Shown: in pieces, positions 5,616 to 30,965 of the stretch | How positions within the stretch are numbered: position 1 is the first letter of the stretch | How the letters are laid out: each line of letters starts with the position of its first letter | Source of the DNA: a virus | Reading direction: 5' to 3' (one strand) | Virus record (IMG/VR): IMGVR_UViG_3300047440_000444 | Coordinates: 1 to 35,168 of that record | Length of the DNA: 35,168 nt | Position numbers and translations under genes: made by a program | Notes under the pieces: model-generated | The model's input: only the letters and a program-made list of their open reading frames with translations | Databases searched by the model: none | What the model was told of the DNA's origin: nothing

Positions 5616-5838
5616 TTACTTGTTCCTGTAAGGGCATAATGGGCTCTATGACTTGTGATTCTTCTGCTTGTTTTGCTAAAGCTTCTTGATTATGCCGCGC
5701 TTCTGTATTCTTTAAGTGAGTCATAAACTCTACACAGCATTCAATAGTTTCAGAAAAAGTCGCCCCGGGTATTGCTTGGAATTTAAATATTTTTCCGTTT
5801 TTTTCAAACTCAAATGATATATAGTTTCTTACGTTCAT
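5605..5838 (-). CDS. 77-residue unknown protein
   Basis: Starts MNVRNYISFEFEKNGKIF, reads as a short beta hairpin followed by a helix with two adjacent cysteines (ECCVEF) and a glutamine/glutamate-rich tail. The ATG has AAGGAG six bases upstream. It overlaps the next gene by 11 bases. In many phages small proteins with an opening like FEFEKNGKxFxF sit near tail or fibre genes, sometimes as assembly factors, but nothing here fixes the function. Confidence 0.6.
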   Translation of the reverse strand: MNVRNYISFEFEKNGKIFKFQAIPGATFSETIECCVEFMTHLKNTEARHNQEALAKQAEESQVIEPIMPLQEQVNVS

Positions 5839-16208: not shown

Positions 16209-17153
16209 TTAAGCTAAAGTTGTTGCAACGGTCAGACACCAGAGGTCATTAACCACACGAGTGACGTCACCGAAGACATATCCGCATGTAACATTCTGGA
16301 AAAGAGCGTCTGAATAGATTGGTGGTCGATATAAGAATCTAGCACTAAAATTATCTTGCTCTACGCAAACATAAGATTCATAACCAATCGCTGACCAGTT
16401 ATAAATATCATTACCAAGCGCTGAGGCATTGGGATCAATTGAAGCCACAGAAGATATAAAGAATCTGAAGTCTTCAAAACTACCATGCTCAGAACCTAAT
16501 GTAGATTGCTGGTTAGCATAGTTCCATTTAGGGATATATCCTGGCAGATTATTAAGATCTTTAGATGCTCTGGTATGGCCTAACATAATGAAAGCATCAC
16601 GAATTGGTCCGGTTCCAAAGCGATCTTCGCCTTCTTTTTTATCTAATATCTTCATTGCATCATTAGTAAGAAGTATGGAAGCTACTTCTTGTAAATCGGC
16701 AGGGTTGATATTAGTTGGCGAATCACCGTTATTACCGCCTGCACAATTGTAATAGGATGCTGTAGCAACTAATACATCGCGTGAAAGCTGATCTTCGGTC
16801 ATTCTCATGGCTAATCCAAGCAACTCAGCAGTTTCTGCTAGTACAAGATCCTGGTTTTGCAGAACTACACGCTGGTTCAGCGCCACATATTGTCCATATA
16901 GACTTACTGTGGCATCAATATCAACGCGTGTCAATGCAGTTGCTGGAATCGGTGCACCATCAGCTGATAATGGAACTGGATTGGTTGGAAGTCTGTCATA
17001 GCGCGGCATTCTAAGTGTGTCGCCGCCCTTTGCAGGTAATCTTTTTCTCATAGCCGCAAGACGATAAATCAAGTTTGGCGTACGGATGGCTAACATCACG
17101 TCGTCACATGTAGCTTGAATCTCTGGCGGTAAAGTATTTGGGGAAGTTATCAT
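16209..17153 (-). CDS. Major capsid protein, N4-gp56 family
   Basis: 314 residues. Features of the N4-gp56 capsid family are the central ATVSLYGQYVALNQRVVLQN, the helix LAETAELLGLAMRMTEDQLSRDVLVAT, the domain PADLQEVASILLTNDA with RDAFIMLGH, and the late segment GYESYVCVEQDNF. The protein forms the icosahedral shell on a scaffold (probably the coiled-coil protein upstream). It has its own leader with repeats (17192-17299) behind a terminator, suggesting separate high-level expression. The start follows GAGGG. The family call is from recognised sequence pattern, not a search. Confidence 0.85.
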   Translation of the reverse strand: MITSPNTLPPEIQATCDDVMLAIRTPNLIYRLAAMRKRLPAKGGDTLRMPRYDRLPTNPVPLSADGAPIPATALTRVDIDATVSLYGQYVALNQRVVLQNQDLVLAETAELLGLAMRMTEDQLSRDVLVATASYYNCAGGNNGDSPTNINPADLQEVASILLTNDAMKILDKKEGEDRFGTGPIRDAFIMLGHTRASKDLNNLPGYIPKWNYANQQSTLGSEHGSFEDFRFFISSVASIDPNASALGNDIYNWSAIGYESYVCVEQDNFSARFLYRPPIYSDALFQNVTCGYVFGDVTRVVNDLWCLTVATTLA

Positions 17154-19424: not shown

Positions 19425-21467
19425 TTATATAGATTGCTGATCGTTATGATCAGGCTCTTTTTCTTCGCGTTTCAATCTTAGCAAATTTTCTAGATGTGCT
19501 ATATCCCTTGTCTTAATGTCCGCTTCGATTAATTCAAGTTCTCGCAATGCTTTAGCATAGTTAAGTATTGCTTCATAATCTTCATTAACCGCCTTAGATT
19601 TTCTTTCCTCAGCTTGGGCCTTGTTATCCTCAATGCGCGATATTCTTTCTGCTGCCATGCCCTTATTGGCCATAGCCGTAGCTTGCGTAAGTTCAATACG
19701 AGCCTGAGCTTCTTGCATCTGCATTTGACTAGCAACTTGCTGTGCTTGTGATTGCGCCTGTTCCTGCTGCTGGAAGAACTGCATAAGTTTATCTTTATTT
19801 TGAAGCGCAGCTTCGCCTATGGCATAAGATGCTGGGATATCATACCCAAGTTGCTTAAGCTGAACAATTTGAGCGAATGCCATTTGTTTTTGGCTTTCTG
19901 TATCAAATCCAAGTTGAACCTGGCATTGATATTTGCCGAATTCTTTATCATAAAAGTATGGAGATAGTTCTTCACCGCCAAGTATTCTTTTAACCTTTGC
20001 TGGCGTATAGTTCATTTTTATAGCGCGTAGGAATATATCACCAAGTCTTTTTACTGTGAAATCAAAGTTATCAAATAAGCTTTGAAGTGTGGTAAGTCCC
20101 GCTCCCTGCCTATATGAAGCCAATAGAGCTGCAACATCTTGCGTCGCCGCACCCAACATCTCTTCATTGACACCAGTAACAAGATTGAATTGCTGCCCAT
20201 ATACTTCACCAAGTTGGAAGAATCCTGCTGGTATTGGTGGCGGCTGAATCTGTACTACATCAGTGGCGATATTAGCTTCGCGCTTAACTGGTATAATTCT
20301 TCCATTGCCAGTCTGAAATAAATGGTTGACGTCCAATATGGCGTTTTCTTTAAATATCCAACCTGAGTTTACTACAGATTGAATATAGTCGCTGGTTAGG
20401 GTTACACGTTGATTATAAAGTATTTGAGCATCTCTAAGTGAATACGCAACAGATTGTATTCTATTGTAAACGCTTGGCATAATAGTATTAAAGAATCCGT
20501 AAGATCCAACAAATGGATAATCATCTATTAATAGAGGTTGATGCCCATCCCAGAATACGTCATCTTGAATTAGTATTGCGAGCCTAACGGTTGGGACATT
20601 CTGTGTAATCAATTCTACATCTGGGTTATCAAATAAAAACTGATTCACATCTACATTCTTATTGTAAGATATATCAAGCATGTCGCCATTAATCTTATCA
20701 ACGAGCATTCGCTGTTTACGATAGTCTCGATAATAATATTCATCATATGCCAGAAGGCTTCTAGGAGCCTGTCCTTGATTCTCCATAACATATTGAAATC
20801 TTCCATCACGCCCTACGCCCATAGCATTTGATTGTAGTGACATAACACGATCGAATTCAGAATCTGGAACTAATGATCCAGCTGTAGCATGAGTGACATA
20901 ACTACGCCTTGTCATAAATGAGCAGTCAGAAAAGTCCATATTTCTAAAATACGGATCAAAGAACATATATGTGAGTGGAACTGACTCAACTTTTAGATCA
21001 CCGTTAACAGGATCGTTTCTAAAATCTAAGTATAGATGCAGGAAATCTAGTCCCGAAACACATGCTCCATTATAAAATGATCTAGAAAGAGTTTCTTGAA
21101 CGTTTTCATTTTTATATAATGCTAATAGAAGTCGTGTTTGCTGATCTGCCGTTTGTTGTGAAGCATTCTCTACCGGAATAACAATTGTTGATTTTCTATT
21201 TTTACGCTGCCAACCACCAATAAATCCTAGTGTTGGACGAACCCTATTGAGCGAAACTTGAGCTGATGGCTGACCGGGTACTGCCGTAATACCAAAACCA
21301 ATAGCGCGAGAAGTATCTCCGCATTCTAGTCGAGCGTTTGTAGACGCTTCTGACCACATGATACCTAAAATGGATTGATTAACGAGATAATCAGAGTCCC
21401 ATTTTTTTTTTATATATCCAAATCTATCATTAGGATTGGGTAGATCTTCAAATGTACGCATTAACAT
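19425..21467 (-). CDS. Portal protein, P22-like
   Basis: 680 residues, the usual size for P22-type portals. The N-terminal third has RRSYVTHATAGSLVP and the wing/stem region includes LTYMFFDPYFRNMDFSDCSF, DDYPFVGSYGFFNTIMPSVYNRIQSVAYSLRDAQ and QEIN-type FNLVTGVNEEMLGAATQDVA. The C-terminus (from about residue 560) is a long Gln/Ala/Glu coiled coil (QQQEQAQSQAQQ) like the P22 barrel. Twelve copies would form the DNA channel and motor dock. Start at 21467 or the ATG two codons later. Confidence 0.85.
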   Translation of the reverse strand: MLMRTFEDLPNPNDRFGYIKKKWDSDYLVNQSILGIMWSEASTNARLECGDTSRAIGFGITAVPGQPSAQVSLNRVRPTLGFIGGWQRKNRKSTIVIPVENASQQTADQQTRLLLALYKNENVQETLSRSFYNGACVSGLDFLHLYLDFRNDPVNGDLKVESVPLTYMFFDPYFRNMDFSDCSFMTRRSYVTHATAGSLVPDSEFDRVMSLQSNAMGVGRDGRFQYVMENQGQAPRSLLAYDEYYYRDYRKQRMLVDKINGDMLDISYNKNVDVNQFLFDNPDVELITQNVPTVRLAILIQDDVFWDGHQPLLIDDYPFVGSYGFFNTIMPSVYNRIQSVAYSLRDAQILYNQRVTLTSDYIQSVVNSGWIFKENAILDVNHLFQTGNGRIIPVKREANIATDVVQIQPPPIPAGFFQLGEVYGQQFNLVTGVNEEMLGAATQDVAALLASYRQGAGLTTLQSLFDNFDFTVKRLGDIFLRAIKMNYTPAKVKRILGGEELSPYFYDKEFGKYQCQVQLGFDTESQKQMAFAQIVQLKQLGYDIPASYAIGEAALQNKDKLMQFFQQQEQAQSQAQQVASQMQMQEAQARIELTQATAMANKGMAAERISRIEDNKAQAEERKSKAVNEDYEAILNYAKALRELELIEADIKTRDIAHLENLLRLKREEKEPDHNDQQSI

Positions 21468-21537
21468 TTATATGGCCCCTATGTTAAATAACTTTAATCC
21501 TTTACCATAGCATAATAAACTTGTACTGCTATTACGA

Positions 21538-21687
21538 TTACCCATCCATTTGTTTTAAAGCGATCTTGGCTCTTATAATAAGACCATCTAGTAACTTTAA
21601 ATCCATATTATCTATTTCTTTACTATCATTTATAATTCTCTGGAAATATGGGGACTGGCAGAGAATTATAAATTCAATTTCGTTCAT
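21538..21687 (-). CDS. 49-residue helical protein between terminase and portal
   Basis: ATG 21687 with AAAGG upstream opens 49 codons: MNEIEFIILCQSPYFQRI, then a charged stretch and a second helix (KLLDGLIIRAKIALKQ), ending MDG. It is in the terminase-portal block and shares orientation and spacing with its neighbours. No domain is recognised. Confidence 0.55.
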   Translation of the reverse strand: MNEIEFIILCQSPYFQRIINDSKEIDNMDLKLLDGLIIRAKIALKQMDG

Positions 21688-21717
21688 TGCAATTACCTTT
21701 GACTATGCTACTATAAT
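21687..21717 (+). promoter_or_regulatory. Candidate promoter of the plus-strand small RNA
   Basis: TATAAT at 21712-21717 is a perfect -10 box. The best -35 match is TTGCAA at 21687-21692 with a 19-base spacer, which is weaker. Transcription would start at about 21721-21724, right where the hairpin begins. It opposes the surrounding late genes. Confidence 0.45.
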
Positions 21718-21720
21718 GCG

Positions 21721-21787
21721 AACTAATTGACCTCCTTTCTTAATTGGTTAGTTTACATCCAGGGTAGCAATGCCCTGGTTTTTTTTT
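21721..21787 (+). ncRNA. Candidate small RNA with anti-Shine-Dalgarno loop
   Basis: The 66-base plus-strand stretch between two minus-strand genes is built as promoter, hairpin, terminator. The hairpin has 10-bp arms (21721-21730 and 21744-21753; seven Watson-Crick and three G-U pairs) and a 13-base loop CCTCCTTTCTTAA. CCTCCTTTCT equals the 3' end of 16S rRNA that pairs with ribosome binding sites in many bacteria. The G-U pairs are possible only in the plus-strand RNA (they would be A-C mismatches on the other strand), which favours this strand. A linker leads to a terminator. It may bind ribosome binding sites on phage or host mRNAs; a packaging RNA is a less supported alternative. Confidence 0.5.
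21759..21787 (+). terminator. Rho-independent terminator of the small RNA
   Basis: CCAGGG (21759-21764) pairs with CCCTGG (21773-21778) and is followed by nine T. No plus-strand protein gene lies upstream, so it belongs to the small RNA. Confidence 0.8.
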
Positions 21788-22001
21788 AATTATTGATAGA
21801 TCTTTTAAGTAGCTCTCGAAATTCTTTAATTAAATCATCATCAACTCTATAATGAATTCTAAGTGCTCGCGCCATATTACCATCACTATCCCCCAACTTA
21901 ATAAGATATTCTGAATACAACATGCCTTTTAATTCAATCACATCAAATTTATATGGCCATGTTTCTTGAAGCATTTTCTCGATCTTACCTTTAGCATTCA
22001 T
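21786..22001 (-). CDS. 71-residue protein after terminase
   Basis: Starts MNAKGKIEKMLQETWPYKF and contains ELKGMLYSEYLIKLGDSDGNMARALRIHYR, mostly helical and charged. Its ATG overlaps the terminase stop (1 base shared), so it is translationally coupled. It may be a terminase partner or assembly factor; no family is known. Confidence 0.6.
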   Translation of the reverse strand: MNAKGKIEKMLQETWPYKFDVIELKGMLYSEYLIKLGDSDGNMARALRIHYRVDDDLIKEFRELLKRSINN

Positions 22002-25000
22002 TAGAAATGTGACCTTTTCTTATTAGTAAACGCAGGAAGTATATTCATATCCGGATGCGTTCTATTAAGATGTCTTTGTCTAATCGCATCATAATCTTCC
22101 GGCCTAAGATATGTTCCTGTAAGTGGAATAGCTTGGCACATATATCTAAAAGCATCGGCATAGTGATTCCATTTTGACTTAGCTGGCACCGGCAAATACA
22201 TCTGATTCTTTTCATCCCATTGCCGCTTATAGTTCTCTAGTGCATCAATAAGCGTCTGACATCTAACATCATTTATCCAGACTTTAGGAAACATCATAAG
22301 CGCATTCTCTATACTTTCAAGAACATGGACTTGTTTAAGTATTGTATGTTCAATACCAAGATCACGAGCCATAGTTGCGCGTGTTATAGCGTTATTCCCA
22401 AACTCACGAACGCGCATGTCATGGGGGAAGAAATGACCCCCATACCGATATCCTAGCTCTCTAGATTTATCATGTAAAATGCCAACATAATGGTCAATTC
22501 CCACACCAGAATTAGAATAGCAATCAATTATTCGGATAATTGCTGAATCACCTGCCTGTTGCCAAAATATTATTGTGGTTGGATCATTTACGCCAATATC
22601 GAATGCTGAGTATACGAGCAATCCTGGTTCATGTGGCACATGACATATTTGACCATTATTGCGAAGTCTATCTAATGAACTACCAAACCAAGATCCGGTA
22701 ACGCCACGCTCAAACGAGACTTCATACTCCTGCTCATAAAGACATGGATCCATCTGGGCCCTTTCATCTTCAAGGATATCATATGGTATATGTTGTATCT
22801 CTGATGTTTTTTGCTTAAGTACAAACCAGTCTGGTAGAGCCTCTGCCATCTTTGTTAGATGCCAAAGATGATTCTTCCCACGTGGCGTATTATGAGATAT
22901 GAATCCATTTGAAAAGAATGAATGAGTTTCTGGGATCACAAAGTCATAAACATCATTGCGCGATTCTTCAATTGAGGCTATCGGTGAGTAATAGAACTTT
23001 TCCTTAAGTAGATCATATAAATACCAATTTTGCGCCTTTGAATTAATCAATTCTAGATCAGACCTTGTCATCATAGATTTAGATTGTATGTGATCAGGAA
23101 TATTATATCCAACTAAAAGATCGTGGTTAACATCATAAAGGTTCTGTGATGCTCTTCTATATTTCATCGGAATAGTTTCTTGCTCTGTCATCTTACTCGC
23201 AATCGAATATTTTATGAGCTTATAAAATAACCATGCAAAGTGATCTTTAATTGTAAGTTGAGGTAGTTTTCCATGGGTATCTACATAGGAAATAATTCCT
23301 AAATTAAGAAGTATAATCTGTAGATCTTGCAAAAAGCTAAGGTGTTTATAGTTAAGAAAGATATTTCCCCATGTATTCAGATTAAGGCGATATGTTTCTG
23401 AATACACATCGAATATGCCGCGCAAAAAGCTAATCATTTGATTACGATTAAACTTAAACACTTCATCCGGCATTCTAGGATTATCTAAAAACTCTAATCC
23501 TAGATCTTTCATAGTTTTACGAAGAATCTTATTAAACTTTCCCTTATAGCGGCAGTTTAACTCAAGAAACATATTGTCTGTATGTATTTGTGTTTCGCGA
23601 GTTGCCTCAATACTGCCATCAAGGATTAACGTTCCTATAAAATAAAGACAATCAACATCAATTGAATCAGCTTGTTTCTCGGGCCATATATCCTGACCAT
23701 ATTGGATAGGTAATCGTGAGCCAATTACTAACTTATCTGCTGGTATCCACTGCTTTCCATCCCAAAGTTGATGTATAGGCGTGCATTCAATTTGATAACC
23801 AGATTCAAGCGTAATCTTTAATGTATCTTGCTTGCGCCCATAGTAAAATTGTTCTGCCGCGTGAAATCCTTCAAGACCAAATATATTCTCTTTAAGATCT
23901 GTATATTCTTTACGCGAGCTAGATACTTTTGATATCTTACGCATTCCATTAGATGTGATAACTACGGTATCAGGTGCAACACATGATACTATAAGGCACC
24001 ATCCACCATTAGCGGCTATAATGGGGCGTATCATATTAAATACTTCAGCAGATTCCATAATCGCGAATTCTGATAGAATTAAGGCATAGGCGTTTGTACC
24101 TATAAGAGAAGTATTAAAGTTCTTTACGCCAATACACTGTAAGATGCTTCCGTTAATGAACGTGATCTTCATCTCAGATCGATTTACATTCTTTATAAGC
24201 TGTTTGGGAATATAATCTAACCATTGTATACCATCATTAGATATGGCATCAAAAATTACCTTGCGAATATGGGTGTATGTCGGCAAGCAATAGTATACCA
24301 AACAGACTTTTTTTATACATTGCCGTATGGCTAAATTCCAGGCTGAAATATCTTTTCCAGAGTTATGTACAACATATCCATTGGCAACAAAATTACCATA
24401 TGTCGTTGTTTCAATATCATATAGCTCTTCATCAGAATGATCTGCTATTGTGAAACTAGATCTAAAGCATCCGTGAGTTATTTTGTTAGTTTTTGTAGAG
24501 TCACTTATTTTACTTAGCGCTTCATCTTGTTTCTCTGTCTTACCATATATTTTTACAGCTGTTAGAATTCTTCTTACACTATCAGATTTTGATATCTTTA
24601 TCTTCCAGTTACTTTGTTTTTCATAGTATGGAACTTGTGGCACTATCCCAATTTTACGCAGCAGCCAATACATATCCCAAGCCATATTATAACTAACACC
24701 ACAACTCAATGTTATCTCTATTGCCGGAGGTATACTATGCATAGTATCACTTGCTATAAAGCCATTCTTATGACAATAGATATTACCATCTCCAGATATA
24801 TATGCAGTAATAAACCTTAATATTGATTCTTCATTATAATCCCATATAAATGGGAACAATCTTCTATCACTTTTGGAAACATCTAATCCATATTTTCTAA
24901 AAAATTCTTTAATCTTATTTTTAGTTTTACCGCCACCATTTGTACCATTAGAAAATCCTAAATCAAATCCTTTCCCCTTTGGCCTCCATATAGATTGATA

Positions 25001-25591
25001 TCCAAATAATTTGAAAACAAGTTCTTCAACTCGCTTTAAGATATCTAAGTTTATATTTGTGAATTTTGGTTGTTGATATGCGGCCACATATCCATCGGAT
25101 AACATATAGCCCAAGAATTCTGCCATCTCCGGATCTGACAATGTCCCTTGATTTAATCCGGCATAATTAAGCAAGAAGTTCTTATTTGAAGTTCGGCCTA
25201 TTGGCTTCCATGTATAGTTATTATACCCAGAATATACAGTTGCGAACATATGATCTTTTGACGTGATAACTGGAAGAAACCCACTACTTCCTTTAATTAA
25301 TTTCGTCTTCTTTATTCCAGTAGACCATTTATTCTTTACTATATCTTTAACAAAGCCCTGACCGTCCCATGAAACAATTTCGTCGCCGATTTGTATATCT
25401 TTTAATAATTTAAACGACCCATTTAAAAGAGTAATATGCGTATTTCCAGAAAGACATCTTCTTGGGGCTATATATATTACTTTACGATATCCCTTATTCT
25501 CAATTGCATCCCATATTGGGAGCTGATACCATCTTGGAGAAAATTTATCTAAAGTTAGTCTATGCTCTGCATTAAGTGTAATTTGCTCCAT
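22001..25591 (-). CDS. terL: Large terminase (packaging ATPase-nuclease) with two inteins
   Basis: The 1196-residue frame encodes a terminase of 466 residues after removal of two 365-residue inteins (46-410 and 537-901). The ATPase half has the Walker A loop APRR|SGKD (42-45 joined to 411-414), a Walker B-like ALILSEFA (503-510; E508) and the coupling motif S|TPRG (536 joined to 902-905). The nuclease half has D998 (FDIG), D1058 (PHD) and D1146 (YADAFRY), the RNase H-like acidic triad. It cuts and pumps DNA through the portal. The start has AAGGAGG. Excision of both inteins is required, since each splits a catalytic loop. Confidence 0.95.
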   Translation of the reverse strand: MEQITLNAEHRLTLDKFSPRWYQLPIWDAIENKGYRKVIYIAPRRCLSGNTHITLLNGSFKLLKDIQIGDEIVSWDGQGFVKDIVKNKWSTGIKKTKLIKGSSGFLPVITSKDHMFATVYSGYNNYTWKPIGRTSNKNFLLNYAGLNQGTLSDPEMAEFLGYMLSDGYVAAYQQPKFTNINLDILKRVEELVFKLFGYQSIWRPKGKGFDLGFSNGTNGGGKTKNKIKEFFRKYGLDVSKSDRRLFPFIWDYNEESILRFITAYISGDGNIYCHKNGFIASDTMHSIPPAIEITLSCGVSYNMAWDMYWLLRKIGIVPQVPYYEKQSNWKIKISKSDSVRRILTAVKIYGKTEKQDEALSKISDSTKTNKITHGCFRSSFTIADHSDEELYDIETTTYGNFVANGYVVHNSGKDISAWNLAIRQCIKKVCLVYYCLPTYTHIRKVIFDAISNDGIQWLDYIPKQLIKNVNRSEMKITFINGSILQCIGVKNFNTSLIGTNAYALILSEFAIMESAEVFNMIRPIIAANGGWCLIVSCVAPDTVVITSNGMRKISKVSSSRKEYTDLKENIFGLEGFHAAEQFYYGRKQDTLKITLESGYQIECTPIHQLWDGKQWIPADKLVIGSRLPIQYGQDIWPEKQADSIDVDCLYFIGTLILDGSIEATRETQIHTDNMFLELNCRYKGKFNKILRKTMKDLGLEFLDNPRMPDEVFKFNRNQMISFLRGIFDVYSETYRLNLNTWGNIFLNYKHLSFLQDLQIILLNLGIISYVDTHGKLPQLTIKDHFAWLFYKLIKYSIASKMTEQETIPMKYRRASQNLYDVNHDLLVGYNIPDHIQSKSMMTRSDLELINSKAQNWYLYDLLKEKFYYSPIASIEESRNDVYDFVIPETHSFFSNGFISHNTPRGKNHLWHLTKMAEALPDWFVLKQKTSEIQHIPYDILEDERAQMDPCLYEQEYEVSFERGVTGSWFGSSLDRLRNNGQICHVPHEPGLLVYSAFDIGVNDPTTIIFWQQAGDSAIIRIIDCYSNSGVGIDHYVGILHDKSRELGYRYGGHFFPHDMRVREFGNNAITRATMARDLGIEHTILKQVHVLESIENALMMFPKVWINDVRCQTLIDALENYKRQWDEKNQMYLPVPAKSKWNHYADAFRYMCQAIPLTGTYLRPEDYDAIRQRHLNRTHPDMNILPAFTNKKRSHF
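22889..23983 (-). other. Intein 2 in the terminase TPRG motif, endonuclease degenerate
   Basis: Residues 537-901. Starts with Cys537 (CVAPDTVVITSNGM), block B ECTPIH (602-607), block F VYDFVIPETHSFFSNG and block G FISHN with Thr902 as +1. The first LAGLIDADG motif is FIGTLILDG (D658 present). The second, LRGIFDVYS (723-731), has Tyr in place of the catalytic Asp and Ser in place of the last Gly, so the endonuclease is probably inactive while the splicing residues remain. Confidence 0.92.
24362..25456 (-). other. Intein 1 in the terminase Walker A loop, with LAGLIDADG endonuclease
   Basis: Residues 46-410. Starts with Cys46 (CLSGNTHITLLNGSFKLLKD), has block B TSKDH (110-114), block F ELYDIETTTYGNFVANG and block G VVHN followed by Ser411 as the +1 residue. 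Two LAGLIDADG motifs are intact at the catalytic position: FLGYMLSDG (D166) and ITAYISGDG (D268). Splicing by standard Cys/Asn/Ser chemistry and an active homing endonuclease are both expected. Confidence 0.93.
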
Positions 25592-29489: not shown

Positions 29490-30811
29490 TAGAGTAATCC
29501 TTGCCTTTTATAATATAAGAATTTTTCATACTTCTCTTTTCCTATAAGCGCAATAATAGTTGAATCATTTAATCTATAATAAGCCTCATTCAAATACATG
29601 CCATTCGGCAGTCGCATAGTTCTAAAATCAAAAAGATCTTCTGTAATAGTTGGCTCTCTTTTTTCAATTGCTTTATGCATAGAAAATAAATTATGCGCAC
29701 CAAATAACGTCTTCATCAAACTTGTCGCTTCTTCTTTTGTTGGGAATCCTGGTTCTGGCATATCAGGTAATATTCTAGCAGGAACAAAGTTAGCAGTCTT
29801 TTTGACCAGTACAGGCCTTTTTACATTAGGCCTTGCCTTCGGCGCAACTATGTTGATTTTTGGGGCGAGCTGCATCGTAGTATTGCGATATCCCGTTAGC
29901 CCAGCCGCAACCAGCAGCATGGCAGTAACAACGGGGAAAACCCTAGCCGAATGCTTTTGGGCAACCTTCCTTATCCACTTAAAGGGATCTAATATCTGAT
30001 GATATCTTTGCTTGTAGAGAGTCAAAGCCTGTTTTAAAGCAGATTCAGGGTACTGAGACAATAGAACTTGTCCCGTCTTGGTTAGACCTATCTCTTGGGT
30101 AATTTGTTTAACCTGGTTTGAAATTGGTGTTAAAAATTGGTTTTTAGTAAGAAACTCTATCCTTGTTTTCGGATTAATCGTTAATCTTCGCATCCAGCTT
30201 TCAAACCAATTCCCCCTTTTTGGGCCAATGGCATCTTTATAAACTAAATCTTCTCCGCCTTCTAGCTTGACTCCCTTATAATAATCAAGAGTATTTATAA
30301 ATAAATCTTCTTTTTTCTTTACTGGAGTTAGTAGTGTGACTTTAGTATCTGAAGTAGCCCATTGTTTAATTCTTAATGCTCGCACAAACCCAGAAGATAA
30401 GGGCAAGACATCCATAAGAGCATCAAGCGTCTCTTCTTTTAATAGCTCTGGCAGAACTTTATACACCTTCGGCATGTTATATCCTTTAATCTTTAAAGAA
30501 GATAACAATCCCAATGGCGCCAGGTTCTTATTAAGCGCTCGGTTGAATGTTTCACGGGCAATCCCCACAATATCACGGGAAGATATGTCTTGGGATAGAT
30601 AGAGCGGCTTACCATTAAACGTAAGATGCATCAGTATTACGTAGTCTAATACTCTTTGTCTTGATTTGTGCAGCGATCTGACTGTTTTTTCTAAGCTATC
30701 AGAATTAAATACAGGGTTCTGGAGCTCTGTATAATGCTTTTTTACTAATGCGGCAAACGCTACATTTGATATTTTGTCGAGATTTTGTTGACTTTTTGTT
30801 TGTTTGTTCAT
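29489..30811 (-). CDS. Winged-helix DNA-binding protein with membrane segment; candidate replication initiator
   Basis: 440 residues. Residues of about 50-120 (RVLDYVILMHLTFNG, LSQDISSRDIVGIARETFNRAL, LAPLGLLSSLKIKG) form a helix-turn-helix/winged helix like those of plasmid-type initiators. Residues 291-308 (VFPVVTAMLLVAAGLTGY) are a transmembrane or buried helix after a basic stretch. Near its promoter are two-part direct repeats (30833-30894) that could be its binding sites. It heads the long minus-strand operon. No polymerase or helicase domain is visible. Initiator function is inference; a transcription regulator is the alternative. Confidence 0.55.
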   Translation of the reverse strand: MNKQTKSQQNLDKISNVAFAALVKKHYTELQNPVFNSDSLEKTVRSLHKSRQRVLDYVILMHLTFNGKPLYLSQDISSRDIVGIARETFNRALNKNLAPLGLLSSLKIKGYNMPKVYKVLPELLKEETLDALMDVLPLSSGFVRALRIKQWATSDTKVTLLTPVKKKEDLFINTLDYYKGVKLEGGEDLVYKDAIGPKRGNWFESWMRRLTINPKTRIEFLTKNQFLTPISNQVKQITQEIGLTKTGQVLLSQYPESALKQALTLYKQRYHQILDPFKWIRKVAQKHSARVFPVVTAMLLVAAGLTGYRNTTMQLAPKINIVAPKARPNVKRPVLVKKTANFVPARILPDMPEPGFPTKEEATSLMKTLFGAHNLFSMHKAIEKREPTITEDLFDFRTMRLPNGMYLNEAYYRLNDSTIIALIGKEKYEKFLYYKRQGLL

Positions 30812-30832
30812 ATAATTAACTTTACTTTTATT

Positions 30833-30894
30833 AAGAAGTGAATCGGTGGGGCTAATAACTCTTTACTTTACTTAAGCTTAAGAAGAAGTGAATC
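30833..30894. repeat. Two-part direct repeats upstream of the winged-helix gene
   Basis: AAGAAGTGAATC occurs at 30833-30844 and 30883-30894, 50 bases apart. Each copy is preceded on the plus strand by a TTTACTT element (30821-30827 and the 30862-30871 region). A perfect 12-bp palindrome, CTTAAGCTTAAG, lies at 30871-30882 against the second copy. Iteron-like origin sites or operators for the adjacent gene. Confidence 0.5.
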
Positions 30895-30930
30895 TATAGT
30901 TCTTAGAGGGTTCTAGAAGATTAAAAATTT

Positions 30931-30965
30931 AAAGACTTGGTGAAAGCCAGGTCTTTATTTTTATC
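30931..30965 (+). terminator. Stem-loop with T-rich tail, plus strand
   Basis: AAAGACTTGG (30931-30940) pairs with CCAGGTCTTT (30947-30956; one G-U pair on the plus strand) around TGAAAG, followed by ATTTTTAT. It sits in the 341-base gap 30812-31152 with no plus-strand gene before it, so it may end a short RNA or insulate the divergent units. Confidence 0.5.

Follow-up and report, generated by a model that had tools for sequence, protein, structure and literature searches.

A candidate phage small RNA with the 3′ tail of 16S rRNA in its hairpin loop

Short antisense RNAs of phages, such as P22 Sar and lambda OOP, end in a terminator of their own. Their genes lie opposite to other genes of the phage that carries them (PMC13397905, PMC5415839). 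The C4 RNA of phages P1 and P7 pairs with the region of a ribosome site, probably by way of loops (PMC12197685). In rhizobia, the NfeR1/alpha-r14 (cuckoo) RNAs present an anti-Shine-Dalgarno motif in hairpin loops and repress target mRNAs at the ribosome site (PMC10746234). In Betaproteobacteria, double-hairpin RNAs of 57–67 nt are made up almost wholly of two hairpins. Their CU-rich stretches match ribosome sites in reverse complement; the RNAs are predicted to cover such sites, they inhibit the growth of E. coli, and overexpression of one of them, ncS27, slows Burkholderia (PMC5688073, PMC4603805).

The window analyzed here is the full length (35168 bases) of an IMG/VR virus record from an uncultivated virus of bacteria. 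A first-pass annotation had proposed that it encodes a stand-alone plus-strand RNA exposing the 16S anti-Shine-Dalgarno sequence in a hairpin loop; that observation is confirmed by our analysis, and the interpretation as a whole is partly supported. The gap between the terminase and portal genes consists of a 71-aa ORF, a 98-base intergenic stretch with the candidate unit, and a 49-aa ORF. The candidate is encoded antisense to the minus-strand late operon, with the terminase upstream and the portal downstream. The features of the region are as follows.

16209-17153, minus strand: major head protein
19425..21467, minus strand: portal protein
21538..21687, minus strand: 49-aa ORF (MNEIEFIILC...), immediately following the unit on the late mRNA, with AAAGG eight bases before its ATG
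21712..21717, plus strand: −10-like hexamer TATAAT
21720..21754, plus strand: first hairpin, GAACTAATTGA...TTAATTGGTTAGTTT
21724..21787, plus strand: predicted small RNA of about 64 nt, its start placed from the −10 (21720-21726 possible)
21730..21740, plus strand: ACCTCCTTTCT in the loop, an exact copy of the 16S rRNA 3′ tail of many bacteria
21731..21741, minus strand: loop complement AAGAAAGGAGG in the late-operon mRNA, the predicted cis target, with no start codon at ribosome-site distance
21759..21787, plus strand: strong intrinsic terminator with an 8-pair stem, CCAGGGTA/TGCCCTGG (stem 21759-21778), and nine T
21786..22001, minus strand: 71-aa ORF, just upstream of the unit on the late mRNA; its ribosome site TAAGAAAAGGTCA resembles the loop complement
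22001..25591, minus strand: terminase large subunit, ribosome site AAGGAGG

Neither the 71-aa nor the 49-aa ORF has a detectable homologue in relatives of the virus. The 49-aa ORF contains a perfect 15-bp inverted repeat (21628-21642 / 21659-21673), each arm of which holds one TATAAT, one per strand, and it is mirrored on the plus strand by a 69-aa TTG frame (21521-21730) with no evident ribosome site. In the 1196-aa terminase ORF, terminase matches are found only at 537-641 and 862-1155, and an inserted domain or intein is possible. Elsewhere in the window, a second stand-alone plus-strand unit (30788-30957; TTGACT-17-TATAAT, 11 of 12) overlaps the start of a minus-strand gene and has a terminator at 30930-30957.

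The TATAAT, hairpin, and terminator of the candidate unit are arranged on the plus strand as the annotation had described. Of a promoter, the −10 that it named is present and a −35 at normal spacing is not: TTGCAA at 21687-21692 sits 19 nt upstream of TATAAT. A sigma-70 scan of the plus strand returned no promoter at the unit because no −35 lies 16–18 nt from the hexamer. The terminator has its T-run in the plus direction only and no plus-strand gene ahead of it, which implies plus-strand transcription without a preceding plus-strand gene. The description as stand-alone fits the −10, hairpin, and terminator and needs qualifying for the setting, which is antisense between the 71-aa ORF and a 49-aa ORF that the annotation had not listed.

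The RNA from 21718-21790 is predicted to fold at −20.0 kcal/mol, with z = −3.1 against dinucleotide shuffles. By itself, the first hairpin is modest, with three registers at −6.0, −5.8, and −5.1 kcal/mol. The three G-U pairs pointed out previously hold in the register with loop CCTCCTTTCTTAA, which is the weakest of the three (−5.1). Within the predicted fold of the full-length RNA, CUCCUUUCU is open, with a mean unpaired value of 0.91, and the minus-strand counterpart of the hairpin folds less well (−2.3). At the level of anatomy, there is good support for a stand-alone RNA whose anti-Shine-Dalgarno loop is exposed.

Such a unit might also be a real terminator of stray plus-strand transcription beside a chance motif, with no functional small RNA. 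TATAAT is common, occurring 35 times on the plus strand of the window, and strings like AAGGAGG appear at roughly chance frequency, with four copies of AAGGAGG where base composition predicts about 3 by our own estimate; the site of the unit is also not conserved in relatives. We nevertheless judge this account improbable. Scanning for a −10 followed by a stem of at least 8 pairs and then a terminator gave one place in the window and none in 400 dinucleotide shuffles, a significance that is overstated, as the parameters were set after the unit had been seen. Given the base composition, so short an RNA (64 nt) is very unlikely to have an exact 11-nt match to the 16S tail in its loop, and similar elements recur in other phages.

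Bacilli, many Proteobacteria, and Bacteroidota have the motif ACCTCCTTTCT as their 16S rRNA 3′ tail. The annotation had counted ten bases of this tail in the loop; the match to the usual tail is exact over 11 nt, and the tail of the host may differ. Portal relatives were found in metagenome-assembled genomes (MAGs) labelled Chlamydiae, Omnitrophota, Methylococcaceae, Bacteroidetes, and others, and the Bacteroidetes MAG with a portal relative contains GGAACACCTCCTTTCT, which we take to be its 16S tail. The window has a single exact copy of ACCTCCTTTCT, with near copies (up to 2 mismatches) at chance level.

By far the best predicted partner of the loop is its own complement in the late mRNA (−26.0 kcal/mol); the next-best site anywhere reaches −16.8 kcal/mol and is not a start site. 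Predicted pairing with ribosome sites amounts to −13.2 for the 71-aa gene and −12.2 for the terminase, within the best 0.6% of all 30-mers. The annotation had held the strong ribosome sites of this genome to be complementary to the loop, which is true of the terminase AAGGAGG, the sole ribosome site among the four copies of that string.

From the anatomy, the loop open in the predicted fold, and the complementarity, all of which are observed, we infer that the unit most likely encodes a small RNA that would pair through its loop with Shine-Dalgarno sequences, foremost in its own late transcript. Our best explanation, which we hold tentatively, is that an antisense-strand RNA of about 64 nt with an open copy of the 16S tail masks such sequences. 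Transcribed opposite to the late operon as a hairpin followed by a terminator, this phage RNA would hold the tail copy open in its hairpin and base-pair with purine-rich Shine-Dalgarno sequences, which would keep 30S subunits off. Its strongest partner would be the late transcript between the 71-aa and 49-aa genes, and weaker partners would include the ribosome sites of the 71-aa gene and the terminase, possibly along with host mRNAs.

The main rival to a mimic of the ribosomal tail is cis antisense action like that of P22 Sar or lambda OOP. The RNA would then pair from end to end with the stretch of late mRNA that separates the 71-aa and 49-aa genes, triggering RNase III cleavage or blocking the 49-aa gene, and the anti-Shine-Dalgarno loop would merely reflect the opposite strand. 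Complementarity to the late mRNA is perfect, cis pairing is far above that of any other site, and the position in an operon gap, the size, and the two-hairpin form all fit phage antisense RNAs (PMC13397905, PMC5415839). We still consider a purely cis-acting RNA unlikely, as AAAGGAGG is separated by about 43 nt from the downstream ATG of the 49-aa ORF and is not the ribosome site of that gene. A hairpin bridging this distance, like the T4 gene 38 fold and carrying AGGAGG to the ATG, was rejected at a pairing probability of 0.001.

The claim that no start codon is suitably spaced from the minus-strand complement is borne out: no ATG, GTG, or TTG follows AAAGGAGG at ribosome-site distance, and a minus-strand gene using the complement as its ribosome site, the case that the annotation had named as counting against its proposal, was not found. 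A non-ATG gene is implausible, with an ATT 3 nt past GGAGG opening a frame of 17 codons. Because the complement has no proper start codon and the fold to the 49-aa ATG is unpopulated, the RNA is antisense to the late operon and not to an evident ribosome site. The same region bears on a further alternative, in which the minus strand is the one under selection. Here AAGAAAGGAGG would serve the late operon as a standby ribosome site or be a relic of one, the plus-strand terminator would only block antisense transcription, and the plus-strand hairpin would be incidental. In form, AGAAAGGAGGT is a perfect ribosome site, and the TAAGAAAAGGTCA of the 71-aa gene is nearly the same string. Moreover, 198 of the 271 distinct copies of CTCCTTTCTT in the viral contigs collected are ribosome sites of the opposite strand, in counts shaped by the search patterns used. 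The missing start codon makes this alternative quite unlikely, as do a stem that pairs better on the plus strand (three G-U pairs versus A-C) and a −10, hairpin, and terminator in register for a plus-strand RNA.

The masking RNA that we favor has no counterpart at its own locus in the relatives found. Terminase relatives share 26–40% identity and portal relatives up to 53%, none of them close, with gene order loosely kept. Among the relatives found by terminase and portal, including the closest (portal 40–53% identity), the unit is absent from the terminase–portal gap, and the conservation that the annotation had proposed to check was accordingly not seen there. No CCTCCTTTC was found anywhere in the records of 15 relatives and no match to the pattern AATTGACCTCCTTTCTTAATT in 84,980 bacterial and archaeal genomes; blastn against cultured phages returned only chance pieces of 20–26 nt. 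The terminase–portal gap of one relative contains a tRNA-like sequence (L002 1908-1986).

A structural scan of 1.93 Mb (CCTCC or CTCCT in a loop, a stem of at least 7 pairs, and a terminator within 40 nt) matched the window unit and positions 5640-5704 of the terminase relative L004 only. Over the loci of 122 relatives this corresponds to 1 match, versus 0.03 expected per shuffled set. The L004 element, AAACATTAAACAGTCTCCTTTCTTTAGTGTTT followed by a terminator, lies on the sense strand past the stop codon of a 227-aa gene and just before the major head protein. It was rejected as an RgsA sRNA (29.6 bits versus a cut-off of 88.4, the matched bases mostly preceding the hairpin), and a CU-rich hairpin before the capsid gene is not a common trait of the relatives, being present in L004 only among 30 with a capsid gene. 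In another relative (L166 7730-7800), a CU-rich CCTCTCTTTCTT lies after a late gene and ahead of a terminator, with no stem.

Similar elements were found in T4-type phages. A search for CTCCTTTCTT..GTTTA..TTTT brought in AAACTAAATCGCTCCTTTCTTCGCCTTTAGTTT with a terminator, neither the 5′ arm nor the terminator stem of which had been specified by the pattern. Searching for AACTAA..CTCCTTTCT..TTAGTT gave 49 stretches versus about four by chance (our own estimate). Most belong to one group of uncultivated T4-type phages, in which the element directly follows the stop codon of gene 32, the single-strand DNA-binding protein (PHROG 224, E 5.6e-109). The element has the form AACTAAAGCTCCTTTCTCAGAACTTAGTTTAGACCCCGCC..GCGGGGTTTTTT, its hairpin showing CUCCUUUCU ahead of a terminator.

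L406 3796-3850, L407, L410, L416 (as CTCCTTTCTAAG), L421, L392 7373, and others: gene 32 group elements

Mean pairwise identity within this group is 0.87 for the element, of which 21 of about 61 positions were fixed by the search, 0.59 for the gene end, and 0.46 just downstream. The element is not a feature of all T4-type gene 32 mRNAs, being absent after gene 32 in 14 cultured or single-cell marine phages, and it may be either homologous to the window unit or convergent. Other matches in viral contigs that combine an anti-Shine-Dalgarno motif with a T-run are mostly ribosome sites of opposite genes. Where CTCCTTTCTT occurs with a strong hairpin and terminator, six cases lack an opposite-strand gene and one has it, the six including one lineage counted three times and the search patterns again shaping the numbers. 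In several phage contigs of 13–349 kb (L072 7700-7810, L075, L100, L104, L118, and L126), ACCTCCTTTCT and then a terminator form the 3′ end of a short-ORF transcript; these sites have no hairpin around the motif, and tRNA-like sequences adjoin in L072.

Since an open CTCCTTTCT and a terminator occur in L004 and the gene 32 group with no ribosome site on the opposite strand, an antisense ribosome site is not required to account for the loop. The presence of the loop there on the sense strand, with nothing evident to which it would be antisense, also argues against purely cis antisense action in the window. A broader proposal is that unrelated phages carry a module mimicking the 16S tail, a CUCCUUUCU hairpin with an immediate terminator, that stands alone here, forms a 3′-end element after gene 32 in the T4-type group, and would block or re-route Shine-Dalgarno-dependent initiation during infection; we regard this as rather unlikely. 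If true, a phage would make a minimal RNA decoy of the tail by which the ribosome finds mRNA, a protein-free means to tune or shut down translation during infection, and the recurrence of the loop-plus-terminator design behind T4-type gene 32 would make it testable in more than one system.

Compared with the described systems, the window unit shares with P22 Sar a location opposite to one of the phage's own mRNAs, here the minus-strand late operon. Sar blocks translation of ant, whereas the window RNA covers a Shine-Dalgarno string that is not followed by a suitably spaced start codon, the AAAGG of the downstream 49-aa ORF lies outside the predicted RNA, and the phages are unrelated. C4 of P1 and P7 resembles the predicted RNA as a phage RNA whose loops probably pair with a ribosome-site region. 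It is processed from a leader of the same operon and is not known to have a promoter–terminator unit of the form seen here. Alpha-r14 likewise displays an anti-Shine-Dalgarno motif in hairpin loops, but it is a chromosomal trans-acting sRNA with CCUCCUCCC in three hairpins, whereas the window RNA has one hairpin with ACCUCCUUUCU and no sequence match to it. No Rfam family reached its cut-off in the window; RF02278 (Betaproteobacteria toxic small RNA) scored 18.9 bits (E 0.12 for 251 bases), far below its gathering score of 50. The window RNA differs from that family in having a single long loop with the 16S tail where the members have two CU-rich stretches, and in being viral, AT-rich, and antisense to an operon. 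RF02278 and the Burkholderia RNAs ncS03, ncS05, ncS27, and ncS62 nevertheless share its size (about 60 nt), its two consecutive hairpins with the second as terminator, and a CU-rich loop complementary to ribosome sites. By its matching anatomy the window RNA would work as they do, and these are its nearest known RNAs, although the covariance score does not make it a member of RF02278.
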